Below are positions 5,708 through 64,000 of a DNA stretch of 64,000 bases, one piece after another. Origin of the DNA: Hexactinellida sp. DTS-2022 (Eukaryota; Porifera; Hexactinellida); NCBI GenBank assembly GCA_028753945.1, contig JAPNXP010000004.1:1364001-1428000 (forward strand), in the 5' to 3' direction. Both the position numbers and the translations under genes were made by a program. Position 1 is the first letter of the stretch. Each line of letters begins with the position of its first letter. Under the pieces are notes generated by a model. It did not search any database. It saw only the letters and a program-made list of their open reading frames with translations, and was not told the origin of the DNA.

Positions 5708-5917
5708 AGGCAGTGATTCCAATACTGGGCCACTATACTATAGTATAGTCGGCACAGTAATAAAAATAATAATAATAATAATATAAATAAAGGCAGTGAT
5801 TCCAATACTGGGCCACTATACTATAGTATAGTCGGCACAGTAAAAATAATAATAAAAATAATAAAGGCAGTGATTCTAATACTGGGCCACTATACTATAG
5901 TATAGTCGGCACAGTAA
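5708..5917 (+). repeat. Palindromic minisatellite, 3 units
   Basis: Three units, all with the flank GGCAGTGATTC(C/T)AATACTGGGCC, contain the 18-bp perfect palindrome ACTATACTATAGTATAGT followed by CGGCACAGTA. They are separated by TAA-rich spacers and run directly into the hairpin at 5,922. Confidence 0.9.
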
Positions 5918-9837: not shown

Positions 9838-10807
9838 TAAAGGCAGTGATTCTAATACTGGGCCACTATACTATAGTATAGTCGGCACAGTAATAAAAAT
9901 AATATAAATAAAGGCAGTGATTCCAATACTGGGCCACTATACTATAGTATAGTCGGCACAGTAATAATATTATTAAAGGCAGTAAGATTAGAACTGGGCC
10001 ACTATACTATAGTATAGTCGGCACAGTAATAATAACCAAGGCAGTAAGATTAGAACTGGGCCACTATACTATAGTATAGTCGGCACAGTAATAATAACCA
10101 AGGCAGTAAGATTAGAACTGGGCCACTATACTATAGTATAGTCGGCACAGTAATAATAATAACTAACCAAGGCACTGAGATTAGAACTGGGCCACTATAC
10201 TATAGTATAGTCGGCACAGTAATAATATACCAAAGCACTAAGACCAATACTGGGCCACTATACTATAGTATAGTCGGCACAGTAATAACTAACCAAAGCA
10301 CTAAGACCAATACTGGGCCACTATACTATAGTATAGTCGGCACAGTAATAATAACCAAGGCAGTAAGATTAGAACTGGGCCACTATACTATAGTATAGTC
10401 GGCACAGTAATAATAACCAAGGCACTAAGACCAATACTGGGCCACTATACTATAGTATAGTCGGCACAGTAATAATAATATACCAAAGCACTAAGACCAA
10501 TACTGGGCCACTATACTATAGTATAGTCGGCACAGTAATAATAACAACCAAAGCACTAAGACCAATACTGGGCCACTATACTATAGTATAGTTGGCACAG
10601 TAATAATAATAACCAAAGCACTAAGACCAATACTGGGCCACTATACTATAGTATAGTCGGCACAGTAATAATAATAATAATAACCAAGGCAGTATGATTA
10701 GAACTGGGCCACTATACTATAGTATAGTCGGCACAGTAATAATAATATACAATAAAGGCAGTGATTTCAATACTGGGCCACTATACTATAGTATAGTCGA
10801 CACAGTA
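9838..10807 (+). repeat. Long palindromic minisatellite array, 15 units
   Basis: Fifteen units of about 60-70 bp. Each has a TAA-rich spacer of variable length, a 25-bp flank of one of three types, and the core TGGGCC-ACTATACTATAGTATAGT-CGGCACAG. The flanks are A (GCAGTGATTCCAATAC), B (GCAGTAAGATTAGAAC) and C (GCACTAAGACCAATAC). Order is roughly A A B B B (B/C hybrid) C C B C C C C B A. The core is almost invariant: one CGG to TGG change in unit 12 and one CGGC to CGAC in unit 15. The near-perfect 37-bp inverted repeat could extrude as a cruciform. A lone unit at 9,566-9,621 precedes the array. Confidence 0.92.
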
Positions 10808-11753
10808 AAAAAATCTTAAATTACAGCTGTGCCGACAGCATTTCTTTTGGAGGCACTATAAATAAACCAACCACCAAAAGATAGTGTTTCATAGGAACAT
10901 GTAAATCTTATAGATCCTTTTAACTCCTAATCTTTTTTTACTTTTACAGATTGGATGATATTTATTGTTAATTGATAAATATAGAGATTGTATCTCATAA
11001 TTATATGATATTTTGTTAATTTGTTTGCAAGAATAGTATATGTATAATTTTGGACTGTTTGTTCATTAGCTATGAAATTGTTGTTGTTGTTGCTGTTTAT
11101 TTCTTGTATTGAGTCATCTCATGGACAAGGTTTGTTCAATATTATATACATATTATGACGATACTTATTTGTGTCCTCTCTAGACAACATCATATCATTC
11201 TCTCCCAATGAGCCTCTCTGCATAGGAGAGGAGGTACAGATGGTTTGCTACATTGTGCCCCCTCCTACTACCACGTTTATAGTCGATACGGCTTATGTCT
11301 CCTTCAACGGATCAGAGCCTGCTAGTATTGCTGTTATCAACGGCAACAGCGTACTATGGGGATATACTTTAGCCGGTACGTCTGCTAACATAGATACATT
11401 TGGTGTAACCAGCAGCAGAGCTGGAATTAGACTGATAATAGCTAGCTACATTATTTCTGACAGTGACATTCTATACCAGCGGTTCTTAACCTTTTTTATG
11501 TTATTTCCCCTTTTGACCAGTTCTCTCTACTCGATTTCCCCCCTTATTTGGATAAGGAAAAAAGTAGCCGTGAACATTCAGTTTATTAGCTGTTTGCAGC
11601 ATTGTTAGCAAACAATAATGCGATAGTTAGTATGATAATGAACAAATAATCAATAATAATTCTCATTACTAGGAAGTTAGCTTCAATGGGATGGCTGAAA
11701 CTGTTTCTTTGCTACCAGCTCATCGATGTTAGGGGAAGTAATAGAGATCGCGC

Positions 11754-21370: not shown

Positions 21371-21593
21371 GTATGTCAGTTTACTACCATGACAGACTTA
21401 CTACCTCTATTACTAGTACCATGGATGTTCTCTATCCATGACAGATTTACTACCTTACATGACAGAATTACTACCCTTTGATCATGACTTGAGTATTACT
21501 ATGCACTTTTAATGGCTTCTTTCTTTCTTCTACTTGACTAAATACAAACAGCATGTATTCAAAATATTAGGAAATGGTAATTCATTTATATTA

Positions 21594-21958
21594 TTACTGT
21601 GCCGACTATACTATAGTATAGTGGCCCAGTATTGGAATCACTGCCTTTATTACTGTGCCGACTATACTATAGTATAGTGGCCCAGTATTGAAATCACTGC
21701 CTTTATTACTGTGCCGACTATACTATAGTATAGTGGCCCAGTTCTAATCTTACTGCCTTTATTACTGTGCCGACTATACTATAGTATAGTGGCCCAGTAT
21801 TGGAATCACTGCCTTTATTATTATTACTGTGCCGACTATACTATAGTATAGTGGCCCAGTTCTAATCTTACTGCCTTGGTTATTATTACTGTGCCGACTA
21901 TACTATAGTATAGTGGCCCAGTTCTAATCTCAGTGCCTTGGTTAGTTATTATTATTAG
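21594..21958 (-). repeat. Palindromic minisatellite, 6 reversed units
   Basis: Six units read TACTGTGCCGAC-ACTATAC...-GGCCCAGT, followed by type A or type B flanks (A A B A B B). Spacers are TTATT-rich. The block marks the left edge of the minus-oriented satellite. Confidence 0.9.
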
Positions 21959-30370: not shown

Positions 30371-30460
30371 CCACTATCCCAGTGTATAGTCAAAAAGTCT
30401 TGTCTATGTTTCGACATATTGTTGCGCATGTCTACCCGTCTATAGGCTAACACCATCAGC

Positions 30461-30505
30461 GCCTTATTGATAATCGGTGGGATTGAAAAAAATCCTGGGC
30501 CTGGT
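30461..30505 (+). other. 2A-like motif, copy 2
   Basis: Reads ALLIIGGIEKNPGPG. It is preceded in frame by a TAG at 30,442-30,444 that copy 1 lacks. Conserved from L-L to N-P-G-P with one substitution (I to K) relative to copy 1. Confidence 0.55.
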
Positions 30506-30867
30506 TCAACAACGGAGGAGGAAATTTGTTCTATGGAGATAGAGGAATCTTCCCAACCAGATGTGTTTATATTCCCCTCCTCTCAAACGGTACAACAGAC
30601 TCCGATATCGTCTCAAGTTGTACCTTTAAACGACCTCGATTTGTCTAGCCAGTATTCTGATGTACCAATGACTCCTGAGAAGGGAATCTCTACCCCTAAG
30701 TCTCGGAAGAGAAAAGGGTACAGGGCTAGAAAAGATAGAAATCGAGCTGCTATCAAGAAGAGACGAACTGATGACTCAGAGTTTTGTGAAACTGAGAATG
30801 AGGCTCGTCTTGAGCGTTTCAATGAGGATTGTGATGATCCCGATTTTCTATCTAAGCACAAAGAAAA

Positions 30868-31160
30868 TCAATTACGAGACATTACAAAGCGATTGAAGGA
30901 TCCTGAGAAGCGTGCTGAACATAATAAACAGCAGCTAGAATCTATGACTGAGAAATTGAAGGATCCTGAAAAGCGTGCTGAGCATAATAAACAACAGCTA
31001 GACGCTATGACTGAGAGATTGAAGGATCCTGAAAAACGTGCTAAGCATAATATCGCTGTAGCCGAGAGATTGAAGGATCCTGAAAAGCGTACTGTGCATA
31101 ATACCGCTGTATTAGAAAGGTTGAAGGATCCTGATGTGCGTGAAAAGCACAACAAAAGTG
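30868..31160 (+). repeat. RLKDP repeat array in copy 2 (5 units)
   Basis: Five units; the first two are the 21-residue form ending KQQLxxMTE. Copy 1 has nine units, eight of the 17-residue form. Confidence 0.85.
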
Positions 31161-32172
31161 TTCTGGAGAAATATAGAACAAATAGAGAGGAGGTTAACTC
31201 TGTTATTCAAGGTTATTTCTCCCAGATTTCTCAAGGTCCAACGTATGTTTGTTCTTGTTGTGGATGTCTCCATTTCAGGAAAAACAGTTGTTATTCTTAA
31301 AAGAGAAAAACTTGTTTCAACGAATCTTTCCAACTCTGATTTCGTCAAACAGGTAATTATATTCTTTACTTTAAATATTTTAATAATTTCTTTTGCTAAA
31401 GTATTATCTAATTAGAGATAATTAATTAATCAAAGACATACTCAAATATAATATGCGGGATAACTTATCTTATTGTTACATTATTATTATCTATTATTCC
31501 CCTTTAGGTTTTTCTCTATGAGACAGTCAACATAGAATATGTATGTAAGACCTGTCTGGTTAACATCAAAGATGGCAGAGTCCCTAAAATTGCGTTGTGC
31601 CGTGGCTTGACTTTTCCCGAGATCCCTCCTGAGCTATCTGGTCTGACTGTGATTGAACAGAGACTGGTATCTCCCAGACACGAGTTCATGAACATCAGAT
31701 CTCTGGGCAGGGAGAGACAGCACGGACTGCATGGCATGGTTGTTAATGTTCCCATAGACATAGATAAGACTGTTAATCGGTTACCTAGGACATTCCTACA
31801 GTCCCAAACTATTCAGTTACAATTGTTTCGTAAGTTATCGTTCGCGAAACCCTATTTATACGAAACGATCAGACCGAATGTAGTGTTAGAAGCCGCTCGC
31901 TATCTCTCTACCACTGAGCTCTTCAAGCTAGAGAAGGTAGTAGTTTCAGAGGATTGGGTTAATTCTGTTCCACGAACTGGTTCTGGTAATGTTAATTTTA
32001 TTGTTAACCCGAATGACGAGCCTTCTGATGTAGTTGTAGACGAAGAGGAACAGGGTTCTGAGACTGTTCCTGGTATCGAGCAGCTCTTCGATAACCTTGA
32101 GGAGTTGTTGAGGAGATTGATGATTGGGATGAGACCAAGGATGATCTCCCCATTAACCCTGGTTCTCTAGAC

Positions 32173-32440
32173 CAGTGGTTCCCACACTTTTTTTATCTCA
32201 TTCCCCCTTTTTCAACACCATTTTTTTGCATTCCCCCTTCCCAAGATTGTACAAATTAATTTAATGTTTGTATACTAAGGATACTTTAATGTCAAGGATA
32301 AGAATAGTGTATAATGAACTAATGACCCAAAAGTATGCATAAATCTGCTGAAAAAATGTAAATTTACACCGCAGCCATCCCCCCTAAAAAGTGCCAAATT
32401 CCCCCCCAGGGGGGAATTCCCCCCCCTTTGGGAACCACTG
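32173..32440. mobile_element. hAT-type MITE in exon B of Helentron copy 2
   Basis: The ends CAGTGGTTCCCACAC and TTTGGGAACCACTG carry an exact 8-bp duplication CTCTAGAC (32,165-32,172 and 32,441-32,448). 268 bp, no ORF. Splits the codons for GSLDTLLLS. Confidence 0.92.
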
Positions 32441-33163
32441 CTCTAGACACACTGCTGCTGTCCAATGAGAACCTGCTAATGAAATTGGCTCCTGGAGAAG
32501 GGAGGAAGCCTCTGTACTTCTCACAGGATAAGTTTATAGAGGAACTAGCTTACCCTTGTGTGTTTGCTGGTCAATGCAAAGACTTACCTGAGGACCTGTC
32601 GATCCTCAAGAAATCAAAGTCTGACATTTTGAGGTTAGTTATACTCAATACTTATTTCTAAATCTTTACTATTAAATTACAAATATTATTTTCATTGTTA
32701 TACTAAACAATGGATTTTTAGTCTAATTCAGATGTGTATCCATGGTCAAATTATATGTTTCTTGTAATTACTATCTTACTAATAACTACAAAACAATTCA
32801 CTAGATATGATCGGAGATGTAGCACTAACATTCCCCTTCTATTTCTCAAATACAAACTGGTAGAGTCAACTAGCTTGAACAATGCTATCAACATTTGTAT
32901 GAGAAAAACAAAGTCTACAGACGGACAGGCTATAACTGTGTCTGATGTTCTCAATGACGATAATCTGGAGAGAATGGTTGAGGACGATGAAGCTTTTAAG
33001 TTCTTGAAGCAAGTCCGGTCTACCCCTGCATTCTGGCAGCAGAAACAGAGAGAGCTGATGTCTATGATAAGACAGCTGGGATGTCCCACGTTCTTTCTAA
33101 CTCTGTCTGCTGCTGAGACTAAATGGCTAGAGCTATTGAGAATACTGAAACAGATCCTAGATG

Positions 33164-34117
33164 CAGTGGCGCCCAAGTTTCCAAAATGTCGGGATGGGGC
33201 TCACTTGATTTGTGCTAATATTTAATAGGAAAACACGGGCGTCGCACGGCTCTGAAAACTCTCCGGCCAAACAGTTAAAGTGGTCCGGCCATAACCGGAC
33301 CCTCCTATATAATATAGTAGAATAAATTAAAACTGGTCCGGCGCCGGACCAGCCGGACCGCGTGCTACGCCTATGTTATATATAACAGCATAACCACAAT
33401 TCTCTAAATTTAAAATTTAAATTAGATATCAATAGTTTAAAATAGCCTAATAATGAATCCATACTCGTCAATATAAATTCTAACTATTTACTCTATTTGG
33501 CGGAAGTTCTATTATAAGTGCAAGTTTAACTCTACTATATTATTAGAAGTAATTATGCCGCACAAAATTTACGATATAGATTAAATTCTTTATTCTATAG
33601 ATTTTCAAATAATAACTCGATTTTATGAGAATTTTGGCATTATATAATTATTAACTCTAGAACTTTGTATTAAAGTTGAAAATCGACACGGCATAATCAC
33701 AAGAACAACTAATAAGGATCATTTTTTAGGGAAAGATTTCGCTCCACGACTTATGCATTTTGAGATATGCAATGGTATTCAAAGGTCACTCCCAGGAAAT
33801 TTTGCGGATTATTTTTTACAAAATGTCTGCGATTTTGACCTCTAGTGGCGTCAAAAGGTTAAAGAAATGTCAGAATTAAATTTTTCTTTCGGATTTGGAT
33901 AGATTGCATCTTACAGTATATTTAGAAATAGTAATAGATTAAATGTTGCCATAGTTGATTTCCTGAAATCGACATTCCATCTCCTTAATTGTGTTTGTAA
34001 GTAATCGCAGATTTCCTCCATTCGACAGATTCTCGGGATGGGAATCCTTACATTCCCATCCCAGGAAAAATCTCGAGATGGGGGCCCCATCCCAGAATGG
34101 CAAGTTGGGCGCCAGTG
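33164..34117. mobile_element. 954-bp non-autonomous element in the Rep region of copy 2
   Basis: The ends CAGTGGCGCCCAAGTTT and CAAGTTGGGCGCCAGTG are inverted apart from one base near the tip. AGATG is duplicated at 33,159-33,163 and 34,118-34,122. Inside are the subterminal inverted words GGGATGGGGC and GCCCCATCCC. At 33,237-33,370 is a GGTCCGG-rich piece (GGCGTCGCACGG at left, CCGCGTGCTACGCC at right) that may be a nested MITE. No coding capacity. Confidence 0.85.
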
Positions 34118-35032
34118 AGATGACGTTGAGCTGTCTGTTGAAGAGGTTCTGGAATTCCAGTGGAGCGAGAGAGCAGATCTGATAAGGAGAGATCCTGTCA
34201 CTTGTGCTAGGTACTTTGATCACCGCTCCAAGGAGCTATTTAAGGTGCTTCGATCAGAGGTTAGTCCCCTTGGTAAATTGACTGATTACTATTTAAGAAT
34301 AGAATTTCAACAAAGAGGGTCACCACATGTGCATTCGTTACTTTGGGTACAAGATGCACCTAAGTATGGCCACAATCCGTTAAATGAAGTAATAGAATTT
34401 ATTGATCGTACTATCTCATGTAAATTGCCAGATGAGACTAGTATAATAACTGAGGATGATATTAAGTTACAGCGACATAAGCACACAAACACGTGTTACA
34501 AGAAAAAGTCGTTTCGGCGCTGTAGGTTTGGTATTCCGTACCCTCCAATGGTATCAACTAAAATTCTAGAACCATTGAAGTTTGATGCCAGTACGGCTAC
34601 CACAGAGGAGATAGCTGCTAATGCAGCTCTTAGGGAGACTGCTAAGAAAATATATACTCTAATTGACACCTATGATAAGAGCGATACTGAATTAGGTAGT
34701 ATAACGATACAGGATTTCTTTAATGAACTCTATGTTACCGAAGAGCAATACATAACTGCATTGAGATCTTGTATTAATAGACCAACTATATTTCTGAAAC
34801 GAAATTTGAATGAGATACGAATCAATGCTCATAATAAGACTATATTGCATCTCTGGAAAGCTAATATGGATCTCCAATACATATTGGATCCATACGCTTG
34901 TGCTGTTTACGTTATTTCGTATATCGGAAAGTCCCAGCGTGGGATGTCTAAGTTATTGAGAGATGCCTTCACAGTGGTTCAAAAAGCCAAATCAGAGGAA
35001 GTAGGCATTTACGATCAAGTTAGACGCTAACG

Positions 35033-35300
35033 ATGTATTATTAATGTATAGTATATCGGCCATAGGGAATCGTTTTCTTTAGTAAGATCACTTATCCGAT
35101 CCCTAATTTATTAATTATGACGTCATAACACTTTTGTCGAATTAGTTAATCTGCCTAAATTGATACCAAAATTCGTGTTGGGCCCAAAAAATGTATTATT
35201 AATGTATAGTATATCGGTCATTTGAAATCGTTTCCTCTAGTAAGAATACTTATATGACTTCTAGTTTATTAATTATGACGTCATCACAAATCTGCTAAAA
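35033..35300 (+). repeat. Direct repeat next to the Transib left end (offset ~155 bp)
   Basis: ATGTATTATTAATGTATAGT, followed by ATATCGG, occurs at 35,034 and 35,189. Each copy is followed by a CGTTT(T/C)CT tract and TTATTAATTATGACGTCAT. It lies between the transposase stop and the CACAGTG tip. Confidence 0.85.
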
Positions 35301-35394
35301 AATTATAATCAAGTATAAACTTTAATTATGATTTATATTGAACCTAAAGTGTACAATCAATACATAGCATAAAGAAATATGTGTTATATATAGA

Positions 35395-37540
35395 TTAGGT
35401 TTCAATTATCAGGGAAAAGAAAAGTTTATCTTGTGTAGACATTGTGTAAGGATTATTAGCTGAGGACTTTCTTTTGCTTTTAAATTGACATCTATCTCTT
35501 AAAGATATCTGACCATAATCACTGAATGGTTCCAGGCGCACCATAACATCTCGTAAATTCTCTTGAAATGAAGTTTTTCGGGACAGGTTTTCTCTAAACT
35601 TACGAAGATATTTGTTGCAAGCTTCGAGGGCTTCCTCTGAAAAACACTTAAGACCATGGCCATTGTTGTAGTCACTTATTACCTCAACTACATGCGCCAA
35701 CAGCTTATGTAAAGTCGGTGTTATACTTGCCCATGGGTAGTTTGAAATAATGTATTCGTAAGTACTCTTACAGTGAAAATCAAGATGAAGGGTGTCAACT
35801 TTTAAGCTAGAGTTCATGACTCGCAAAGTTACTGCTAGATTTCGATGAATAGTAGCAATAAAATCGCGATCATGCTCTTCAAGAAGTGTAAGGATCCAAA
35901 ATAGAAAATCATGTTGGTTATCTTCATGACGAATAAAACATGTTCGAGCAATATTGCCAGTGGTGCTGGTACCTCCTTGGCTGTTAGGATAATCTATCTT
36001 CAGTCCTGTATGTTCTCGTACAAATTCTTGGATGAATTTTTTCGACTTTTCTACATTGGGATGACTTGGCGACCACTCCTTTTTATGTCCAGCGTGCAAA
36101 TGATATATTAATGTCATAAACCAACCAAAGACCCTTAAGTAACTATGGAGTGGCGAAACTGGAAGAATATCATGTTGTGAAGTAAACTTTTGTGTAATTC
36201 CAAAACGTTGTTCAGATGGAAGGGATAAAAAATCATCAATATCCACTTCTTAAAATATTTGTTTTGCACTTTGAATAGTTCTATTTATTGGAAAACCATT
36301 CCTGATAAAGTATAGATCTTTTAAATTGGATTTAGTCGCAGTGCATAATTGACATGCAGCTCCTCCAGCGCCATCAAGTAGTTTAGCCATTTTGCCATCA
36401 ATCATTGATCGAACTATCTTAATATATATATTTTTCTGATTCACAACGATACCCTCTTTCTCAAGTAACTCTGCTTCTTGGTTGATAATGTTGTCCATGA
36501 TGAATTTTACATTCTCATGAGTTTCCTCTAGAGCGAGCAAGGCGATAGGTCTCAATACAAAGGGAGAATTTGGCATAGGATTCGTCCAGCAAATCTGTGG
36601 TATGTCGGACGAGTCAGTGATAGAGATAATTTTGAAACCAAATAATATGAAGTTTTTTGTACTAATTTCAGGGTGTGGTGGAAGTTGATTATAGAGTCGA
36701 TGGCAACCAGATCCATCCAAACCATCACATATCTCTATTTTAAGAGGGAAAACCCATAAGTTATTTTTGGGTATGCTTTCAAGTAACCTGGTTGTTGTTT
36801 GGATTACAATCTTACGATAAGAGATAGCTATACCAATTGGTACTAAGAACTTTTTATACTGAATATAGTAAAACTCATTCACTAGCCCAACACCATGACG
36901 ATGCTTAGTCAACTTTACAAATGAAGGAAAAGTTATATTTTCAGTGAGACAAAGACGACGCATTTCAGTATATTTACGCCGGCCAATTTCTAACATATCA
37001 ACCAAGTACGAGGCTTTGTCAAGTGGTAATACAGTTGAAGTTCTAGAAAATCCTCCATGTTCAATATTCTTGCATAGATTAATTAGCAGCATTGTAGTCA
37101 TGATCTTCATTAGCGATTAGATGTAATGCATACGCAGCGAGAGCTTTAGGCGATATGTTTTCAAGACCTGCTAATGCATTTATATGTATGAGGAGGATAT
37201 TGAGTCGTGTTTTTACTTGTCGAATAGATATTTCTGACAGAGGTTTCCTCCTTTCTCTACTCGGGTCTTCAATAAATACGTATGTTTCATTGGGTGAGCT
37301 CAAAGTTAACGACTCAAATTTCTCACAAGGATTGGATTGATAGAATAGCGATTCTTCCCATGTAAGGAGATCATTATTCTTGATAAATATCTTGCGTGAT
37401 TCGACCAGTTTTGTAAATTTATAGCGAAATGAATTGTAATCCGTCTGAGGAAGTCCATTAATTTGTAAGAAATGGTGTATAGTTTTCGATAAATTCGATT
37501 CATTGGAATAAAATAAATCAATTGCTTCTTTCTTATTCAT
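35395..37540 (-). pseudogene. Transib transposase (RAG1-related), decayed
   Basis: Read from 37,540 leftwards: an N-terminal part to ~37,090, a one-base frame change (37,079-37,110), a middle part to a TAA at 36,250-36,252, then the same frame on to the stop at 35,395. Together about 710 codons, the usual size for Transib. Family features: SYLVDMLEIGRRKYTEMR in the N-terminal half; CDGLDGSGCHRLYNQ with the first catalytic Asp (36,724-36,726); CQLC zinc pair; SPLHSYLRVF; GGTSTTGNIAR; YPWASITPTLHKLLAH; and SEEALEACNKYLRKFRE holding the catalytic Glu. Transib enzymes share the RAG1 recombinase core. I could not place the second catalytic Asp with confidence. One frameshift and one nonsense codon make this copy inactive. 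Confidence 0.85.
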
Positions 37541-39562
37541 TTGAATTAGAATGTATATTTAGTATCGTGATAAACATCCATCGATTGAAAGTATATATAT
37601 ATTTATATATATTTCACTCTCTTAATGAATTCTTATTATTCAACCACAATATTAACAGATCATTAAATTTGGGAATTATTGTCCGGTGGATGGTTTTCAA
37701 GCCATTTCTGACCTCAATCGCTGCATTTCGCGGTAATCAAACTAAGTAAAACTTTAAGTATATCGAAGAAGCTTGCATTTAAACATAATTTTAGAGCACG
37801 CATCAAAATGCCTCGATAATTCCGGCTTGCATGAAATTATCAAAAATCATTTTTTTGCTAGCAAAGGTAGTACTGAGTAATTGCATCGTAATTCGATTTA
37901 CCTTAATAACTATGTTACACTATTTGATTTATCTGAATATCACAAAATTATACACTGATTCATCATACTTATTTGTTGAAAAGTGGAACCAAGCGTTCGA
38001 TTGGAAGCCATTAAATTACTGTACATATCTTAAGGCCTAAAAATGAATTAAAACAACAGGATCATCACTTACGCGCGCGCCTTAATGCATCTGAAAGCAG
38101 GCAATGCCACTATTAAAGAGAGACTGAGGGGAATTGCATACAAATTTCAGAGCTGTAGCGAGGTATTAGCTCAGGAGGTTTCTTACCATCTCCTCAGTCT
38201 CCCTCTCTCTAAGTGCAGTAGAGCCAATGTCTATATTAACACCAATCCTGCTAATAAACGAGTTAGGATACTCAAGTCCAAACCCGTTCTAATGGGTATG
38301 GAACAGGATTCTGTAGATATACTTTTGTCAGGTCTAATTGAGCACTACATGCAACGACCTGATGAGTTAGAGGAAACATGCCTAGCAGAGTTTGCCGCTT
38401 GGTATGAATTCCAATCTAGTAAGCGAATATGTAAAATTAATCCCGACTTTGAGGAGGAAAATATGGAAGACGAGGCAGCTTCCCTGGTCGATAATCCGAG
38501 ACTATTTCCTCTCAAAGATACAGGTTTTATGAGACTTCGTCGAAAAGCTAAAATTATCCGATTTAGAAGGTATAGTATTATACAGGACGAAGTTAACTTT
38601 TATAGAGAACAGTTAATGCTGTTTGTACCATGGAAAACTGACAGTAGTGATACTGACAATATCGACTTTAAGTCTATGTATGCTACCCATCTTAATCTGA
38701 TTACTCAGAATAGGGAATTGTTTGAAAGTAGAGACCAATCCTCAATTGACGAGGCTATTAATATCCTTGAAGACTTGGACCCTGATGAGCTCAACTTTGA
38801 TGGGATTGCTATAGAGGAAATAATGAACAATGAGGGTGCAGTGGTTATTGAGGATACTGACTTCCAGGTAGACAATCCAGGGAACGACAATCCCTGGACT
38901 GGAGATCCCAATAGTGACCCCGGAACTAAATCTGTGGGAGGATTCTTCACTATTCCTAACATGAATACTGAGGAGGTATTCCTTCAGATGTGTCGCAGCC
39001 TCAACAAAGTTCAGCGTACAGTATTCCTCCACACTCTGCACTGCTTTAAGACTATGAAGCAGCTGCCTATGTATCTCTATATAGGAGGAGGTGCTGGTGT
39101 TGGTAAGAGTACGGTGGTACGAGTCTTATACGAAGGTTTGGTAAGATTTATGAATTCACTACCTGGCACTAAACCTGATGCTATTAAGGTACTGCTAACA
39201 GCTCCTACAGGTAAAGCTGCTTTTAATATCCGTGGTATGATACTACATTCTGCATTTGCTTTACCTGTAACGGAGTTTAACGGCGAAATGCCCAACTTAT
39301 CTTCTGATGTTTGTAACACACTAAGAAGTAAGCTAAGCTGTTTGAAAGTTATCATAATAGTGTCTCAGGTTAATAAGCGATTGAAAGCCATTATGGACAA
39401 TTCACTGGACTTTGGTGGTGTCTCCATCATCTGTGTTGGAGATTTCCATCAGTTACGTCCGGTTATGGATACCTATGTATTTCAAATTTCAGGATCCAGT
39501 GCCAATAATTACGACGGACTGGTTGGTCCGTACCTTTGGGAAAAATTCTCATATATAGAACT

Positions 39563-39993
39563 CAGGGCCGTGCCACTAATGCAAACTGACCAGGTCAAAC
39601 CTGGGCAGATTTTTTCCAGACCAGGTTCTGACCAGGTTGACCTTGTCATTTAACCAGGTCAACCTGTTCATTTAATCAGGGTAACCTGTTCATATAACTA
39701 GGTCAACCTGGTCATTTAACCAGGTTCTAACTAGAGAGAGATATTTTCAGTGCTTTATACGTATATTATATATTTAATACTCAATAGTCATAACAATAAT
39801 AATTGTTTTGAAACTCATCAGCTAGTGAGAACCTGGTTAAATGTCCAGGTTGACCTAGTTATATGAACAGGTTACCCTGATAAAATGAACAGGTTGACCT
39901 GATTAAATGACTAGGTCAACCTGGTCAGAACCTGGTCTGGAAAAAATCTGCCCTGGTTTGACCTGGTCAGTTTGCATTAGTGGCACGGCCCTG
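39563..39993. mobile_element. 431-bp palindromic MITE in the helicase of copy 2
   Basis: The ends CAGGGCCGTGCCACTAATGC and its complement have arms that stay complementary for over 100 bp (ACCAGGTC and GACCTGGT words repeated). GAACT is duplicated at 39,558-39,562 and 39,994-39,998. It splits YIEL|TEIMRQK. Same CAGGGCCGT terminus and 5-bp target as 28,884-29,030. Confidence 0.92.
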
Positions 39994-42310
39994 GAACTGA
40001 CGGAAATAATGAGACAAAAAGATGATCAGAAGTTTGCATTAGCATTGAACAATTTTGCTAACTGTTGTTTAACTGAGGATGACACAAATCTATTTACTAG
40101 TAGAATTATTGCGAAAGATTCTTATGAGAATCTTCCCATAAAATCTATCCATCTGTTTAGTACAAACGCCAGTGTTAATGCTCATAACGAGATTGTTCTC
40201 AATGCATTAACCACTGAAGGTTTTAGATTTATAGCTATTGATTCTTTAGTAGGAGACAATGCTGGAGGTATTACTGACAAACTGAATAACCTTATTCAAC
40301 ACCTAAAGGTATGTGACACCCAGGGACTACCCTATGAGCTCTTCTTGAAGCTAGGCGCTAGATACCTCATGACAGTGAATAACGATATACAAGATGGTCT
40401 GGTTAATGGAGCTACTGGCCTCTTGAAGAAAATAGTTTATGGTACCAAGAGCGATTCTCTGGAACGAGTTCCCTGTATTCTCTGGATGGAGTTTGACGAT
40501 CCAACAGTAGGAAAGGATAAACGAGCAAAGTCTCACCATCGTTATCTTAGAGATAATGCAATTCCAAGGAACTGGACTCCTATTGGATTGGAAACACGAC
40601 GTTTCCAGAGAGGGAAAGGTGTGAGTTCCTATAAGATAGTTAGGAAGCAGTTTCCTTTCATAGTAGCCGAAGCTCTTACAATTCATTAGAGTCAAGGCGA
40701 TACTTACGATTGTGTTGTAGTCCATATAGAAGTACGTTTGCTACGTAATGCGTTATACACCGCGCTCAGTAGGGCTAAATCGGCATCTGGTCTGTTTGTA
40801 GTTGGTAATCTAAAACTAACTAATAAGTTATCTGAAAAAGATCCTGTCCACTTAGAACTTAAGCGGTTACGAGAACACTGTGCTATTATGTGGTCTATTC
40901 CACTAACTAGTCCAGATATCTATGTACACAATGTTCGTTCATTGAACAAACACTGGGAAGACTTGACCTTAGATCCACTCATATTGCAATCCCAAGTGTT
41001 AATCTTACATGAGACAATGACTTTAGCCACTGATAACTTTAATATCCCTGGTCATACTCTCATTGGTAGAATTGATAGTAGTGCTAGAATCCCTGGTTCT
41101 GGTACACACATATACTCCCGAAATCCAGCGGTGTGTAAGTCTTAGGATCGAGATATTGATTATCCAGTTCTATGATCCCATGATAATCGATAAGCCTATC
41201 GTTGTAATGTCTATATACCGATCACCACAATCCCTAATGAAGGAATTTTACTCTGAACTTGATCAGGTTCTATGTAAAATTGATAACTCTGATTCCTTGA
41301 TAGTTACTGGGGACTTCAATATAGATTTATTTTCGCGATCTCTTGAGAGAGATACCCTGGTAAAGTATTTTTCAAATAAAGGGATGATGCAATCTTTGTC
41401 TGGAGTATCCACTAACTATGGATCTCAGCTGGATTGTGTATTCACTAAAAACTTGATCTGTTCATCTGGTTTTTATGAATCATACTTTAGTGATCATAAG
41501 CCAATGTTGATTTCTCTTGGAACTGTTGTTAGTGACTGTAATAATGTGGATAATCAACCAATTATATCACATGCTACTAGTCAACATGATATTATTGATA
41601 TTGACCAAATATCAAATGATAATACAACCAAGGATATTCAGGATGTAATTGTTAGTCATGTACACATCCCTACTCCTGTGCTGTCTCCCGTAAATACATA
41701 TGACAATGCTAATTCATTCACATTTTCGATGAGACAGTCATTAGCAGCATGCATTAATCTACAGAGAATACCTTTAAGACCGACTAACTATACTGGGTCT
41801 AGAGTCTCTGCTACTAGTTATTACGATTTTATGCGTACAAATATAAGAGATCGGTTTAATTTCAGGATAGTTCCTGTAATAAGTGATGGGAATTGTTTCT
41901 TTAGAACATTGTCTCACATTATTTTCGGTGATGAAAGTGAGCATCATAATATCCGTGGTTCTCTAATAGACACATTTGAACAAAGTCCTTATGTTGCTGC
42001 TTTCTGTGGCCACCAAGGCTATAATGCAGTTACTATTCAGCAACACTTGAGTAATATGAAGCGTAATTACTCTTGAGGAACTGTGAATGAACTTATTATG
42101 TTAGGCATTTTAGCCCGCATTAATGTAAGTTATATTAATGCTCCTGATACAGACCCGTCTAAATGGGTGATTACTGATGTATATAATGCAAATAATCTAG
42201 GTATACCCAATGATCCTATCTATCAAGGAAAGTCATTAATAGTTCTATTTCATTCCATTAATCATTGTGGAAGTGGTGCGAACCACTATGATGCAATCTA
42301 CATGATTTAA

Positions 42311-51125: not shown

Positions 51126-51364
51126 ATACCAAAGCACTAAGACCAATACTGGGCCACTATACTATAGTATAGTCGGCACAGTAATAAAGGCAGTGATTTC
51201 AATACTGGGCCACTATACTATAGTATAGTCGGCACAGTAATAAAGGCAGTGATTCCAATACTGGGCCACTATACTATAGTATAGTCGGCACAGTAATAAT
51301 AACTAACCAAGGCAGTAAGATTAGAACTGGGCCACTATACTATAGTATAGTCGGCACAGTAATA
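51126..51364 (+). repeat. Palindromic minisatellite, 4 units
   Basis: Flank types C, A, A, B. Core identical to the array at 9,838-10,807. The satellite orientation reverses immediately after the last unit. Confidence 0.9.
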
Positions 51365-52612
51365 ATTCGCATGGGTTGGTTGGAGTTGGGTGAATACCCA
51401 ACACGCACTTAAAAAATGCTGAGTCATCACAGATTATATTATACTGAAACTTGAATATCTCTAAAATGAAGTGAACTAAATGGAAACTTCCACCACTCCA
51501 AGGGTCGTTGCCTTCTGAAAAACCTTGCTAAGATAATTTAACACCTTCATTGTGATGATGACTTGGCGAAAAAAAATCCAAAATTGCAGCCTGTGCCGAT
51601 AGCATGTTCCTTTGGAGGCACTATCAATGAACAACCAACAAAATATAGTGCCACCAAAGGAACATGCATCGGTACAGGCTGCAATTTTGGATTTTTTATT
51701 ATTATTATTATTATTATTTCTCCGTAGCAGGTGCCCTGGTCACACCTATAAACTTGGCATGTAGGTTCGGAGTCGACGTCTAATTTGCACCTGGGGTTAC
51801 GATTTTTAATTAACCAATTTTGGACACATTTTTGACACCTTTCAAAATTTGTCTGGTCCATAACTCAAAATATGTTTTAATAAACCTCATAATTTTATTT
51901 CATATTTAGATTTATCTTAAAATTCTGCATCTGATGGGGGAAGAAAATTTGTTAAAATTGGTTTAATTTCTGCCATAAATGGGGGTTGAAATTCCTCTGT
52001 TTACTCAACACTTCAATTTCAATAAAACTGTGAAATCTAATTCCATTGTTAAAACTTGTAATAATTATATTGATTTAACTTTTTAAATCTTTCACTATTG
52101 TTTCAACTTGCGATAATTAAATTGATTCAACTTATAAATTCCAGCTGGCTTCTATTTAATTCTAGTATTACTATACAATGGATTAAATAAAATATAATAA
52201 TATAAGGAATTTGTTGACTAAACTTAAATCACCGTGGATAACATTGCTAAAATACAGAACTAATAATATTATTTATTATCAATACATAATTAATGAATGG
52301 CATTAAACTCAAGATGGTTTATGATAGAAACAAACTTCAAATTTATCTACCGTTCCTTGTGACTCGGACCAAAACACAAATGCTTCTTCACACCTTGGGC
52401 GTTGATGACTTGGCGAAAAAAAATCCAAAATTGCAGCCTACGCCGACAGCATGTTCCTTTGGAGGCACTATCAATAAACCAACAACAAAATATAGTGCCA
52501 CCAAAGGAACATGCGTCGGCACAGGTTGCAATTTTGGATTTTTTACTGTGTCGACTATACTATACTATAGTGGCCCAGTATTGGTCTTAGTGCTTTGGTT
52601 TTTTTTTTTTTC
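51365..52612 (-). repeat. Hairpin satellite, minus orientation
   Basis: Hairpins at 51,576-51,692 and 52,424-52,541 in reverse. A single degenerate minisatellite unit (GTGTCGACTATAC) follows at 52,545-52,600. The block starts inside a long-type monomer (CGCATGGGTTGG, CTGAGTCATCA), cut by the orientation switch at 51,365. Confidence 0.83.
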
Positions 52613-57159: not shown

Positions 57160-59228
57160 TCAGAGTCTCTGTAGACAGTTCTCCTCCTTCATGTCACAGA
57201 CGGTAATGAGTCCTGATTCTTCTACGAATATTCCAGTCGGATGGAAGATCTGTCCCAACTCAAAGCCCTTTCCTGAAAACGTTTCTATGAATCCTCCTGC
57301 CATGTCAAACACCTTTATAGCACTGTCCCAAAAGTCCGTTATGTAAATAAGCCATTCTCTTGTGACAGGATTCCTGAACAGGTTGAAATGATAAGCTCCC
57401 ACTATCTTATCTTCTGTTAGGATGGATCTAAGGAGTTTTCCTTCAAATGAGAATTCTTGCAAAGGAGAAGGAGATCCTGTGAAGAGACAGAAGATGGAAT
57501 AGTATGCGGCTTTCATATCCTGTAACCAAGGATATCTGTTCTTGTTGTTAGAGTAGCGAATGGGTTTTAGTGGATACTCATTTTGTATTAGGTGAGTATA
57601 TCTGTCTATATGGATGAGACTTGGTTTGAGAGTTCCAACAAACAAACCAGAACAAGTAAAAGCCTCATAGGTATCATAAAAAGCTGTACAGCAGAGTTGG
57701 GGTATTTCAATGGAAGTTTTGAATAGGATACGGTGTACATTAAATTCATCATCCCACGGCAAGCGATATTTCACGAATTCATTGTTATAGCACGCGAATA
57801 ATGAACATTCAAAGGCTGTTTCAAAGACTGTTAGAGAAACTGGAGTGTCAGCTGTTTCAAAATTCAAGATCCATCCAAGTGCCGTCAGATCACTATCTCT
57901 GTAGTATGTGACTAAATGCCCACATTTGTCTGCTACATACACATTATTTTTAAACACAAGGACAGAAGCTGGAGTGACTAACTGCAACCCTTCAGTTGCC
58001 CCTCTGTCTACTCCAGACGCAATCGGTATGTCCCTTTCTGATTTGGGTGGAGCTACGAGGATTGGTTCTCTTATACAGTCTAAAGCAGCAGATGGTATGT
58101 TAATCCTGTTGTAATAGAAATGACGGATTCGTCTCAGAAGCATTTCGTATATTTCTTTCAATAAGGCGTCGTCTTCATTCTTGTTGACTAGGTAATCCAG
58201 GGACCTTCCATCCCTGTACAAGAGAGGAAGTTCTTCAAACGCAAAGTTAACATCAAACTCAATTCCTGCAAACAACTCTTGAAAACTTTCCAGTTTGCTT
58301 CTAATATTGCTAACATGCCTTGCTATTAACTTTTCACTAGCTACTATTGACTCCCTTTTCATCCTGTCAATTCTGGAGTCGTATATCTGACGAGTTAGTC
58401 CCCCGGGCAGTGTGTCTCGCTCACACAGGATCAGAGGTATCATGTCCTCCCTATGCCAGGATGCACGAAGAATATGAACTCTCCCTTGATTAAATGAGTT
58501 AATCCCTGTCGCATGCAATGTGAGCGCCAAGGCTCCAGTATGGGATAGGTCCTCAGTTTAAGGATTTCAGCTCTCAGCTTTTTGTAAAGAGATTCGTATT
58601 TCTCGATTAATGCTCGTGCTAACTCCAGTGGGATTGACATAATAAAGTTTTTTATTTTGTGTATCTTCTCCCGAGCAGTGTCCCTCCACATGATTAAGTG
58701 CGGGAGTGAATACAAATGAGGTTCCTCCAGAGTCTTCTCTATCAGGTCAATGCTGTCTGCGACTTCTACATTCAGGAACTGATCCGTAACCTCTTTGTCT
58801 AGCCGCTGGAGTTCTGTTTCGATTCTGGCTATTACGTGCGGTTTGTCGTAGTTATTGATTATTAGATTTGGCCTTAATTCTTCCAATACCTGTCTCGCTG
58901 TAGTTATTCGTGTCTCAAAAGGAGCTACATGTATTTTGTAAATTGGAGCTTTCATTTTAGCTAGCTCTGATATTGAACTATGGCATTTCACAAAATTTGT
59001 ACACTGTTGTATAAGATCGCGATATCGAAGATTCAGTAACACGTGTAGATCCTCCGGCATTTTTGATCCCTTCTTACAGTCTAGCTCTGCATTTATTACT
59101 AACTCAAAGATTAATTCATGTAGCCATTCCAATTGTACATTCAAATCCTCAATACAAGTAATATATCTCAGTCTCACTTCGTACCGAGCAAATTTTCTTT
59201 CAGCTTTGGTGCTTTGCTTAGCTCCCAT
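57160..59228 (-). pseudogene. Coiled-coil/NHL-repeat protein with N-myristoylation signal, frame change in the middle
   Basis: ATG at 59,228 (MGAKQSTKAERKF) gives an N-terminal MGxxxS, the consensus for N-myristoylation, so a membrane-attached protein is likely. Residues ~10-250 are helical and charged (coiled coil). This frame ends at 58,440. A second frame, open from 58,530 to 57,160, continues with a helical segment (IARHVSNIRSKLESFQELF), then a beta-propeller-like part ending in an NHL motif (GQIFHPTGIFVEESGLITVCD). The frames overlap for 91 bp and are offset by one base. The simplest reading is one ~690-residue gene with an indel near 58,450-58,530. A sequencing error, an unseen short intron or programmed frameshifting are alternatives. 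The architecture recalls TRIM-like NHL proteins without RING or B-box. Confidence 0.6.
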
Positions 59229-59623
59229 TTCAATTATCAATTCAAAATTTAACTTTCATTAATTGTGTTGATTAACAAATTTATAACTACCTATTTATAG
59301 AGTCAGTAAAATATACCATTACGTATCTACATAGAGAATAGTGTATTGTGTCTGCTCTAATTAGCCACATTACTTCATATGGAAAGCTATTCTATTAATA
59401 TAATCAGAATATACTACTATATTGTGATAGTGAAATAACCTCAAATTATTATTCAAACAAGTCATGAGAATTATGACAACAAATGATAAACTATAAACGG
59501 ATATAATTCGAAAATGAAAGAATTAATAGTTCAATTTTCTATTTCATAGAAAGTAACAGGAAAATAACTATAACGCGGGATGGTTGTGAAGTTAGCAGCG
59601 AAGTTAGCAGCGAAATATTCCAT

Positions 59624-60130
59624 GTCACATTTAACACCTTATAACTTTGCAACCGCTGACTCAATGGACATTCCACTTGGCACAGGCCTAAGTGAGACTA
59701 GGAGGATTATGTCATTTCAAATAGAAATCCATCTGACACCTCCTAATCGCACAATGACTCAGCAAAAATTATGTTCAATTTTCTGAAATCGTGTCACATT
59801 TAACACCTTATAACTTTGCAACCGCTGACTCAATGGACATTCCACTTGGCACAGGCCTAAGTGAGACTAGGAGGATTATGTCATTTCAAATAGAAATCCA
59901 TCTGACACCTCCTAATCGCACAATGACTCAGCAAAAATTATGTTCAATTTTCTGAAATCGTGTCACATTTAACACCTTATAACTTTGCAACCGCTGACTC
60001 AATGGACATTCCACTTGGCACAGGCCTAAGTGAGACTAGGAGGATTATGTCATTTCAAATAGAAATCCATCTGACACCTCCTAATCGCACAATGACTCAG
60101 CAAAAATTATGTTCAATTTTCTGAAATCGT
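59624..60130 (+). repeat. Three 169-bp tandem repeats, left arm
   Basis: Units begin GTCACATTTAACACCTTATA at 59,624, 59,793 and 59,962, with a fourth partial start at 60,131. They contain CAATGGACATTCCACTTGGC and ATGACTCAGCAAAAATT. Subterminal repeats of this kind are candidate transposase binding sites. Confidence 0.95.
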
Positions 60131-60422
60131 GTCACATTTAATGACGTTTCAAATTTCATTTCGATTCTGTTGCTCTTACTACTTCCTTAATTTCTCTTTA
60201 TTTACACCTATCAAAAGTCTGATAGTTCATACTTTTTTGATAATGATGCTATAAAATTGATGTACTACTACACAATGTAACACTAGTATTCCCGAATTTT
60301 TTTAATCACTAAATATATTCTAAAGCTATCTAAATCATCTATGTGATGCGAATACATCATACATGCAATATCTATTTCTAATAAAATTCTATTGATTGAC
60401 ATGTAAAGTGAATTTTCGGCAA

Positions 60423-61610
60423 CTAACACGAGAGTTCTTCCTTATATTGTTCGTTTAGCACCTTTTCCTTAGTGTTTACTTTCAATATTGGTTGGAAGTG
60501 GTTGAAATACAGACGAATATATATTCTCTCTTCTGTTAAATCGTGTACGTTACGTTTATCATTGAAACCGAGTGCTGAAAATCTGTTCCAAGTATGGTCT
60601 GTATCTTTGTATACAAATATATCTGTTTTTAGAATTTGTGCTGATAAGAATAATTCTAGATCTGTTCCCCAGGACCCAACACGAGCCATCATACTATTCT
60701 GAATATATTCTTCAATTGTGTTGCATTGATGTTCTGGGAGTAGACTATAATGCGCAGCACAATAATTTGTGCAAATTTCTCGATAATCTTTTCTCATATT
60801 ATGGATTAGTAATTCCCGAATTTCTTTGTGGTGATGGTCGGATCCAGTTAGAATATAAGAAAGAGAACTAAAAAGGCAATTCCCATCTGGTAATATCCTT
60901 TTTTCCTTTGAGGGAGCTAATTTTATAAGTTCTAGGGTCTTGTCAGAAGCTTCATTCTCGTAGATAACGCCTCCTACAAATGTAAACATCATTTCCTTAC
61001 ACTTTTGGCGTTGCCATCGTGAGTGTACAGGACAGAACTGTCCCTGGTAATGTAGGTTGATATCCTTTGACATTTCGAATATACTGTCATCGCTTGATAA
61101 CTCATTTAAATCCATTTTTTGAGAATGACCACTTCGAATGTTTGATGAAAAATTATCCAGACATTTGGGATTCTTTTTATGGCATTTAGACAATTTTTTA
61201 TGACTAGTTTTCGATGTAATCGAATTTCTTGTTTTCGATATCTGATAGGGCTTAAAATATCCACGCTTTTTTTTACGTCTCTCCCAAATTTCTTCAACCT
61301 GCGAGTCATCTATTCTATTAATTTTCTCAATTTTCCTTTTCTTTATGACTTTACAGCTAATTGGGAGGAAAGCGAAGTCAAAAGCTTTAATTCTTCCCGA
61401 AATACCTTCATACATTCTTCGGATAAAATCCCCTGGGCGTAACTTTGATTCGTCGTTTAATATATTCTTTTTAACAATTCTCATCCAATTCTCTGCTACT
61501 GAGTTGGTAAAAGTTGCATTGACCTTTCCAGGAAATTTTGAAGGACCAATGATCAAACCGGTCCATAGAGGACATATTGGCATATAATTTGTGGCTAGAA
61601 ATTCTTGCAT
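60423..61610 (-). CDS. OTU-domain protein fused to a transposase C-terminal remnant (left arm)
   Basis: 395 residues from the ATG at 61,610, inside the loop. Residues ~10-75 (CPLWTGLIIGPSKFPGKVNA, NSVAENWMRIVKKN) resemble the C-terminal end of NOF/Mutator-type transposases as I know them. Residues ~80-180 are basic and Ser-rich, possibly nuclear-localising. From ~225 there is an OTU fold: DGNCLFSSLSYILTG with catalytic Asp and Cys, VGSWGTDLELF with the conserved Trp, and FNHFQPI with a candidate catalytic His. OTU proteins are usually ubiquitin-cleaving cysteine proteases. The frame is intact and the key residues are kept, so the product could be active. A protective or regulatory role for the transposon is inference. 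Confidence 0.75.
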   Translation of the reverse strand: MQEFLATNYMPICPLWTGLIIGPSKFPGKVNATFTNSVAENWMRIVKKNILNDESKLRPGDFIRRMYEGISGRIKAFDFAFLPISCKVIKKRKIEKINRIDDSQVEEIWERRKKKRGYFKPYQISKTRNSITSKTSHKKLSKCHKKNPKCLDNFSSNIRSGHSQKMDLNELSSDDSIFEMSKDINLHYQGQFCPVHSRWQRQKCKEMMFTFVGGVIYENEASDKTLELIKLAPSKEKRILPDGNCLFSSLSYILTGSDHHHKEIRELLIHNMRKDYREICTNYCAAHYSLLPEHQCNTIEEYIQNSMMARVGSWGTDLELFLSAQILKTDIFVYKDTDHTWNRFSALGFNDKRNVHDLTEERIYIRLYFNHFQPILKVNTKEKVLNEQYKEELSC

Positions 61611-62812
61611 ATTATTGTCCTAATTTACCAGAAATTCTAGCCACAAATTATATGCCAATATGTCCTCTATGGACCGGTTTGATCATTGGTCCTTCAAAAT
61701 TTCCTGGAAAGGTCAATGCAACTTTTACCAACTCAGTAGCAGAGAATTGGATGAGAATTGTTAAAAAGAATATATTAAACGACGAATCAAAGTTACGCCT
61801 AGGGGATTTTATCCGAAGAATGTATGAAGGTATTTCGGGAAGAATTAAAGCTTTTGACTTCGCTTTCCTCCCAATTAGCTGTAAAGTCATAAAGAAAAGG
61901 AAAATTGAGAAAATTAATAGAATAGATGACTCGCAGGTTGAAGAAATTTGGGAGAGACGTAAAAAAAAGCGTGGATATTTTAAGCCCTATCAGATATCGA
62001 AAACAAGAAATTCGATTACATCGAAAACTAGTCATAAAAAATTGTCTAAATGCCATAAAAAGAATCCCAAATGTCTGGATAATTTTTCATCAAACATTCG
62101 AAGTGGTCATTCTCAAAAAATGGATTTAAATGAGTTATCAAGCGATGACAGTATATTCGAAATGTCAAAGGATATCAACCTACATTACCAGGGACAGTTC
62201 TGTCCTGTACACTCACGATGGCAACGCCAAAAGTGTAAGGAAATGATGTTTACATTTGTAGGAGGCGTTATCTACGAGAATGAAGCTTCTGACAAGACCC
62301 TAGAACTTATAAAATTAGCTCCCTCAAAGGAAAAAAGGATATTACCAGATGGGAATTGCCTTTTTAGTTCTCTTTCTTATATTCTAACTGGATCCGACCA
62401 TCACCACAAAGAAATTCGGGAATTACTAATCCATAATATGAGAAAAGATTATCGAGAAATTTGCACAAATTATTGTGCTGCGCATTATAGTCTACTCCCA
62501 GAACATCAATGCAACACAATTGAAGAATATATTCAGAATAGTATGATGGCTCGTGTTGGGTCCTGGGGAACAGATCTAGAATTATTCTTATCAGCACAAA
62601 TTCTAAAAACAGATATATTTGTATACAAAGATACAGACCATACTTGGAACAGATTTTCAGCACTCGGTTTCAATGATAAACGTAACGTACACGATTTAAC
62701 AGAAGAGAGAATATATATTCGTCTGTATTTCAACCACTTCCAACCAATATTGAAAGTAAACACTAAGGAAAAGGTGCTAAACGAACAATATAAGGAAGAA
62801 CTCTCGTGTTAG
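61577..62812 (+). CDS. OTU-domain protein fused to a transposase C-terminal remnant (right arm)
   Basis: Mirror copy of the left-arm gene. The frame is open from 61,577, crosses the loop (LAYYCPNLPEILATNY) and then repeats the left-arm protein; the first ATG is at 61,652. I see one residue difference: Leu here for Pro at RxGDFIRRMYEG. Because the loop continues the transposase-like sequence upstream, the right arm probably keeps the original gene orientation and the left arm is the added inverted copy. Active-site residues as in the left arm. The two genes are divergent, back to back across the loop. Confidence 0.75.
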   Translation: MAYNLWLEILAYYCPNLPEILATNYMPICPLWTGLIIGPSKFPGKVNATFTNSVAENWMRIVKKNILNDESKLRLGDFIRRMYEGISGRIKAFDFAFLPISCKVIKKRKIEKINRIDDSQVEEIWERRKKKRGYFKPYQISKTRNSITSKTSHKKLSKCHKKNPKCLDNFSSNIRSGHSQKMDLNELSSDDSIFEMSKDINLHYQGQFCPVHSRWQRQKCKEMMFTFVGGVIYENEASDKTLELIKLAPSKEKRILPDGNCLFSSLSYILTGSDHHHKEIRELLIHNMRKDYREICTNYCAAHYSLLPEHQCNTIEEYIQNSMMARVGSWGTDLELFLSAQILKTDIFVYKDTDHTWNRFSALGFNDKRNVHDLTEERIYIRLYFNHFQPILKVNTKEKVLNEQYKEELSC

Positions 62813-63104
62813 TTGCCGAAAATTCACTTTACATGTCAATCAATAGAATTTTATTAGAAATAGATATTGCATGTATGATGTATTCGCATCACATAGATGA
62901 TTTAGATAGCTTTAGAATATATTTAGTGATTAAAAAAATTCGGGAATACTAGTGTTACATTGTGTAGTAGTACATCAATTTTATAGCATCATTATCAAAA
63001 AAGTATGAACTATCAGACTTTTGATAGGTGTAAATAAAGAGAAATTAAGGAAGTAGTAAGAGCAACAGAATCGAAATGAAATTTGAAACGTCATTAAATG
63101 TGAC

Positions 63105-63611
63105 ACGATTTCAGAAAATTGAACATAATTTTTGCTGAGTCATTGTGCGATTAGGAGGTGTCAGATGGATTTCTATTTGAAATGACATAATCCTCCTAGT
63201 CTCACTTAGGCCTGTGCCAAGTGGAATGTCCATTGAGTCAGCGGTTGCAAAGTTATAAGGTGTTAAATGTGACACGATTTCAGAAAATTGAACATAATTT
63301 TTGCTGAGTCATTGTGCGATTAGGAGGTGTCAGATGGATTTCTATTTGAAATGACATAATCCTCCTAGTCTCACTTAGGCCTGTGCCAAGTGGAATGTCC
63401 ATTGAGTCAGCGGTTGCAAAGTTATAAGGTGTTAAATGTGACACGATTTCAGAAAATTGAACATAATTTTTGCTGAGTCATTGTGCGATTAGGAGGTGTC
63501 AGATGGATTTCTATTTGAAATGACATAATGCTCCTAGTCTCACTTAGGCCTGTGCCAAGTGGAATGTCCATTGAGTCAGCGGTTGCAAAGTTATAAGGTG
63601 TTAAATGTGAC
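63105..63611 (-). repeat. Three 169-bp tandem repeats, right arm
   Basis: Reverse complement of 59,624-60,130. One substitution distinguishes the outermost unit (ATAATGCTCC at 63,525-63,534 in place of ATAATCCTCC). Confidence 0.95.
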
Positions 63612-63655
63612 ATGGAATATTTCGCTGCTAACTTCGCTGCTAACTTCACAACCAT

Positions 63656-64000
63656 TAACGCGGGAGTATCACCAAGTATGGCTCGACTTGCAAAAGTGGT
63701 GAATTGTATGATCACTATGTGCATAAAAAACTTACATTATCGTGCCTAAATTACATAAATAAAAAGACATTGCAAACAGATTTCTTTAACCAGTTTGCAG
63801 GTCTGTTGAAAATTAGCGGTGTTATTAGAAATTATTGTATAATTACAGTCAGGTTCTTTTATTATGAACATTCAAGGGGCCAAAACTTATGTTCATAATA
63901 GAGATACTTCATAATAAGCGAACCCAACTTAATACAAACCCTATGTAAGTTGTCAAATTGGGACCATAGGGCTTGTTCATAATAAAAAATCTTCATATTA
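63656..64000. other. Right flank of the foldback element
   Basis: Begins with the right target duplication. No recognisable gene. TTCTTTTATTATGAACATTC at 63,854 and GTTCATAATAAAAAATC near the end face each other and may be the ends of a small MITE. A short open frame at 63,704-63,898 has no family features. Confidence 0.4.

Follow-up and report, generated by a model that had tools for sequence, protein, structure and literature searches.

The feature at positions 59580-63655 of the window (i.e. the whole 64-kb stretch of DNA analysed) is, to judge from its sequence, a non-autonomous palindromic derivative of a DNA transposon of about 6.5 kb. The gene belonging to this transposon codes for a large protein that carries an OTU domain at its C-terminus. 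Self-comparison of the arms delimits two inverted copies of 2026 bp separated by a loop of 24 nt and flanked by TAACGCGGG. This nine-base motif is found in the 64 kb at 59571 and 63656 only, and two copies of it were obtained in none of 100 dinucleotide-preserving shuffles of the window. The first-pass annotation had described an element made almost wholly of inverted repeat, with very similar arms and with ends coinciding with a 9-bp direct duplication, and this description proved exact, including the coordinates of the duplication. The 34-bp loop and the two base differences that it reported correspond to the same structure, but they derive from arms taken as 2021 bp long: the true loop is 24 nt and the arms differ at three positions (126, 1856 and 2022, numbered from the outer end). 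At all three, the right arm is the changed one, the left arm and the copy found on C11 serving as references (for position 126, the other repeats). The doubled-end palindromic structure is well supported and comprises the following features:

57765..59579, no strand: left flank, 88% identical to the insertion-free C16 paralog
59571..59579, no strand: left target-site duplication TAACGCGGG, present as a single copy at the empty site C16:346881-346889
59580..61605, + strand: left arm, 2026 bp
59580..60428, + strand: left TIR proper, arm positions 1-849, common to both ends of the C11 relative
59623..60141, + strand: left array of 169-bp tandem repeats, 3.1 copies
60423..61610, - strand: 395-aa ORF, C-terminal part of the putative transposase gene with OTU domain (PF02338, E 2.1e-11)
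61606..61629, no strand: 24-nt loop, parental sequence in single copy, which directly adjoins the right-arm sequence in the C11 relative
61630..63655, - strand: right arm, 2026 bp, bearing the three arm-specific changes
61652..62812, + strand: 386-aa ORF, second C-terminal part of the putative transposase with OTU domain (PF02338, E 1.9e-11)
62807..63655, - strand: right TIR proper, arm positions 849-1
63094..63612, - strand: right array of 169-bp tandem repeats, 3.1 copies
63656..63664, no strand: right target-site duplication TAACGCGGG
63656..63985, no strand: right flank, 95.5% identical to the C16 paralog, where it is joined to the left flank

The left TIR proper reaches as far as the end of the transposase-OTU ORF, whose stop codon is at arm position 844, and the 395-aa ORF is truncated in 5' at the palindrome junction. 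Two adjacent ORFs lie in the left flank (window 57160-59228); the one at 57160-58443 has a weak NHL repeat match and, from 57765 on, this region has a second copy on C16.

A search of the host genome with one arm gave at least 50 DNA matches, including the window's own (40 of 56 candidates scored), and a protein search with the window ORF gave at least 112 match rows (104 of 955 candidates scored), some of them being pieces of one element. Leaving the palindrome aside, the most similar of the matches listed is an element of 6.5 kb on C11. It lies between copies of AGCACCATC, the left one being placed 4 bp outside the aligned element end. Both ends of this element share arm positions 1-849, and its TIRs (511 and 1525 bp) differ in repeat number. 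Its left end extends into the 3' portion of a long gene, which terminates in OTU. The window arm is 99.5% identical to this left end and gene part over 1654 bp, up to the joint, with seven mismatches, three of which are at the joint itself. The reading frame of the C11 copy is broken and the palindrome therefore does not derive from an unchanged C11 copy. Only the C11 and C18 copies reach 99-100% identity to the arm among the matches listed; the others are three fragments at 81-93% and a remainder at 77% or less. The target duplication is 9 bp long in the window, C18 and C11 copies, and tandem repeats of 142 to 187 bp are an ordinary component of the inverted ends of the relatives. A search for relatives in viral contigs found none. 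The C18 copy (C18:1993723-1994655, i.e. L030 3723-4655) belongs to the same family; it is a deletion derivative of 933 bp and has the 9-bp duplication TCATGAACA. At its left terminus, ATGGTTGT precedes a 54-bp piece of the end in inverted orientation, which makes this another rearranged end.

The window ORFs carry an OTU domain according to Pfam (PF02338, see above) and to DGNC and HF motifs, which are found in both arms and in the relatives; the DGNC and His motif residues are presumably the catalytic residues of OTU proteases. Matches to solved OTU proteins are weak (best E 0.00035). A distant relative, which shares 36% identity with the window ORF, has the complete gene as a single open frame of 1255 aa. 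The OTU gene, viewed in the first-pass annotation as intact cargo, appears instead as the 3' part of a transposase-OTU gene, as in the C11 relative and the 1255-aa relative. Capture of an OTU gene as cargo was thus ruled out, since OTU sits inside the large element gene in the relatives. On this comparison, the window OTU ORF represents the 3' terminal part of the gene proper to the element, interrupted at the palindrome centre. We infer that the large protein is a DDE transposase, in which D, D, CxxH and E positions are conserved as judged by eye only; the window ORF is devoid of the first two of the three conserved acidic positions (alignment examined by eye). The intact 1255-aa relative (L051 218-3982, on C5), with its C-terminal OTU, retains D, D, CxxH and E by eye but gave no match to a Pfam transposase. 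Proteins of the L051 type possibly represent a transposase lineage not previously described.

Fusion of an OTU protease to a transposon protein also occurs in Ginger1, which has a C-terminal OTU domain, and in animal Helitrons, as described in excerpts of PMC2836005. Unlike these elements, the protein found here gave neither an integrase nor a Helitron domain in Pfam. The literature (titles and abstract openings, with few subscription papers covered) yielded no OTU-bearing transposase of the Mutator or a similar type, and the word OTU is absent from the main text of the MULE surveys PMC6446971 and PMC13359780. The interest of this transposase-OTU family lies in its at least 112 match rows, the 9-bp duplications of the copies checked, its ends built of repeats and its lack of a Pfam transposase match.

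With their target duplication and long TIRs, the elements resemble Mutator or Rehavkus, an outgroup of the latter. The 9 bp found here fall within the 8-11 bp given for Mutator (MULE) duplications in the available part of PMC6446971, and the C11 copy has long TIRs (511 and 1525 bp). Membership in Mutator, as considered in the first-pass annotation, is therefore compatible with these two characters, but Pfam MULE (PF10551) had no match in seven ORF pieces from six related loci, some of which are without the core, and a Pfam-based assignment to Mutator was dropped. PF10551 gave at least 150 rows elsewhere in the same genome (150 of 961 candidates scored), none of which overlaps the rows matched by the OTU-ORF protein (by eye). 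When the transposase was compared by hhalign with two small MULE sets drawn from this genome, the scores were at chance level, but the MULE-MULE control failed as well. One relative showed a sub-threshold match to HTH_NOL4_2nd (E 0.04). Rehavkus is described in PMC6446971, as far as its excerpts go, with a 9-bp TSD, a minisatellite before the 3' TIR and a PHD finger. The elements studied here have a 9-bp duplication, and their tandem repeats lie in both TIRs; no PHD was detected in Pfam scans.

The flanks were searched in the host genome (112.4 Mb, 18 contigs). The left flank has a second location at C16:346572-346889 (93%) and the right flank at C16:346881-347208 (95%); homology on the left side reaches at least 1.8 kb at 88%. 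The two C16 matches share nine bases, and the sequence there passes without interruption from the left flank through a single TAACGCGGG into the right flank (C16:346572-347208). Since this paralog holds both flanks around one TAACGCGGG, the window locus has gained the element by insertion, and the comparison identifies a genuine insertion that duplicated nine bases. Most simply, it would postdate the separation of the window and C16 paralogs. The first-pass annotation had proposed to look for an empty site with a single TAACGCGGG, and such a site is present on C16, as a paralogous one.

Both arms are copies of the same end. The 169-bp repeat is present in 3.1 copies in each window arm. The tandem-repeat scan of 11 relatives' loci, five of which (L030, L031, L032, L039 and L040) were not countable at both ends, gave unequal numbers in the six of six that were: 1 vs 7.1 for the C11 element (the count of 1 being a single left unit from a separate end comparison), 2.9 vs 3.9 for L033, 2.8 vs 1.9 for L034, 4.6 vs 2.2 for L036, 2.6 vs 4.2 for L037 and 1.8 vs 5.2 for L038. 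Because the counts are equal in the window and unequal in all these relatives, the window arms descend from one (3') element end, including the last ~1.2 kb of the gene. In the parental sequence, the loop and the right arm are contiguous and the left arm ends 24 nt short. The switch point displays a 3-nt microhomology, AGA, common to both strands, and an imperfect 8-nt inverted match (7/8) across it, both noted by eye. The palindrome is apparently young, but its dating is weak: about 7 substitutions in 1697 positions separate the arm from C11 (two of them in ambiguously aligned repeats) and 3 in 2026 separate the arms from each other (Fisher p 0.20). The near-identity of the arms may reflect either recent formation or arm-to-arm conversion.

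The palindrome probably results from a break in an OTU-transposon, an inverted joining and an insertion as a unit. A break would have arisen inside one element and the same broken half would have been joined to itself in inverted orientation with slight trimming, by fold-back priming or sister-chromatid fusion. The joining would yield a unit with two identical and correctly oriented ends, which a transposase supplied in trans by another copy could excise and insert at the window locus. If a transposase moved the unit in this way, the exact coincidence of the mirror with the transposon termini would be accounted for, as would the intact target duplication. In yeast, fold-back joints with a 10-nt imperfect inverted microhomology and a 41-nt spacer have been described (excerpts of PMC11724301), but the products reported there are much shorter, from 2 to about 150 bp.

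An origin in place is unlikely, although it is the likeliest of the rivals. A full-length element would have inserted and been excised, and the gap refilled with the same TIR on both sides; in a variant, inward gene conversion from TIR to TIR would have been followed by a deletion. Either course would produce a target duplication and a pair of identical ends like those observed, the long near-identical TIRs would permit mispairing, and the presence of internal and ORF sequence in both TIRs of Galileo has been attributed to such conversion in the available parts of PMC3573991 and PMC4168063. Furthermore, the C16 site demonstrates an insertion, and a full element later rebuilt in place would fit it too. 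However, copying tracts that stopped independently would seldom do so as little as 24 nt apart: inner ends 30 nt or less apart are expected in 2.4% of cases if independent over 2.5 kb, under an assumed simple uniform model. Since the inner ends differ by 24 nt only, a single break is favoured over repair in place.

The Drosophila element Galileo (P superfamily) is one of the most similar known systems, according to the excerpts consulted. Its 2RT or extended-TIR copies are TSD-flanked and non-autonomous, have internal and ORF sequence at both ends and contain tandem repeats in some TIRs. Arms of long-TIR copies are 95.2% and 97.5% identical, and identities of 98-100% between TIRs of one copy are also mentioned. 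Galileo differs by its superfamily and by the 7- or 8-bp duplications of D. willistoni.

Membership in a foldback family that propagates itself, with the palindrome as its usual form and the OTU gene as cargo, is very unlikely. Tm1 (Mutator/Foldback, root-knot nematodes) provides a precedent, with composite long TIRs and 9-bp duplications as described in part of PMC3169594. The 496-aa putative transposase of Tm1 is likened there to Phantom, whereas the protein found here is much larger (1255 aa in the distant relative), carries OTU and lacks a Pfam transposase match. The first-pass annotation had presented the feature as a foldback element and suggested a search for other copies; among the matches listed (at least 50 DNA and at least 112 protein matches, pairs being sought by eye), this search gave one exact palindrome, without a second copy, beside the C11 and 0.93-kb C18 copies. 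In addition, the C11 relative of 6.5 kb has the conventional structure of a TIR element, and its OTU sequence forms part of the large gene of the element. In the protein rows listed, the only other close inverted pair seen by eye is on C5, with scores of 225 vs 173 bits. The palindrome therefore looks like a one-off derivative rather than a member of a foldback family. It is ordinary in kind; its perfection and the readability of its origin are unusual. No sequenced TSD-bounded perfect palindrome of a comparable kind was found in the literature (titles and abstract openings, with few subscription papers covered, so that absence is unproven). The element offers a clean snapshot of the passage from transposon to perfect palindrome, as one genome contains the parent type, the joint, the target duplication and the empty site.

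Near-perfect palindromes are a classic artefact of long reads, but an assembly artefact, be it from a hairpin read or from an inverted duplication left unresolved, is extremely improbable here, since the mirror ends exactly at the transposon termini with unmirrored flanks, the target duplication lies on both sides with an empty site elsewhere (the existence of which excludes a simple assembly hairpin), the loop is off-centre and three bases are arm-specific.

The palindromic structure may also have consequences for related elements. Both partial ORFs are directed outward from the palindrome centre. Since one half mirrors the other, every transcript that runs across the element would be self-complementary over 2 kb; a transcript entering from either end could contain one arm in antisense and the other in sense, and form a 2-kb hairpin. 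By analogy with what has been proposed for maize Mu killer (Muk), such a hairpin could feed siRNA against close relatives, but this is a guess. In the excerpts available of PMC3440606, Muk is described as two copies of one TIR with an inverted part of the transposase gene that silence its family, and the proposed hairpin is of about 4 kb. Here also, a transposon end and a part of the putative transposase gene are duplicated in inverted orientation. The two loci differ in several ways according to the same excerpts: the end duplicated in Muk is the one beside the mudrA start and it is the 3' end that is duplicated here; the centre of Muk could not be sequenced and that of the present palindrome is resolved; silencing by Muk was shown genetically and the present architecture is known from sequence alone. 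Furthermore, the element described here is a TSD-bounded unit with a known empty site, of which those excerpts make no mention for Muk. They also report that Muk-silenced plants contain short antisense transcripts unable to make large hairpins, so that the hairpin model is debated even for Muk.

That the element is a Mu killer-like silencer from another transposase lineage (itself without a Pfam model), which broke, was copied back, moved as a palindrome and whose 2-kb hairpin would give small RNAs against its near-identical relatives, seems improbable. Near-identical targets are few: among the matches listed, they are the C11 and C18 copies only, which lowers this probability and argues against broad silencing. 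The host has RNAi-type genes, with 15 Argonaute/Piwi, 10 RdRP and 3 Dicer_dimer match rows (some being pieces of one gene), and promoters are said to lie within long Mutator TIRs in excerpts of PMC3310237. Palindromic elements of this kind can seed the silencing of transposon families and, if small RNAs map here, the onset of silencing would become testable from DNA structure.

To look for other inverted arrangements, four pairs of MULEs lying near each other in opposite orientation were chosen by eye among the at least 150 PF10551 rows; three of them (L043, L044 and L052) were examined, the fourth being a 13-kb pair on C6. L043 1409-8356 (C11:4485909-4492856) is an inverted duplication around a Pfam-MULE gene, with 2442-bp arms 100% identical and a 2064-bp spacer. 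L044 2412-5485 (C12:576412-579485) is an inverted partial MULE duplication with convergent genes, arms of ~1.3 kb 98.4% identical and a 472-bp spacer. No target duplication was found within 4 bp of the arm ends of L043 and L044, and the inverted arms listed for L052 did not exceed about 230 bp.

The window also contains two Helitron-like elements in opposite orientation, recognised by eye from their ORFs (3-4753, - strand, and 30446-42076, + strand). The second one is interrupted by other sequence, and its terminal ORF is endonuclease- and OTU-like. Moreover, a dispersed minisatellite, whose unit includes the palindrome CTATACTATAGTATAG, occupies positions 5679-5924, 9857-10808, 21589-21922 and 51144-51365 of the window, and the unit containing CTATACTATAGTATAG is also found at the inner arm ends of L043.
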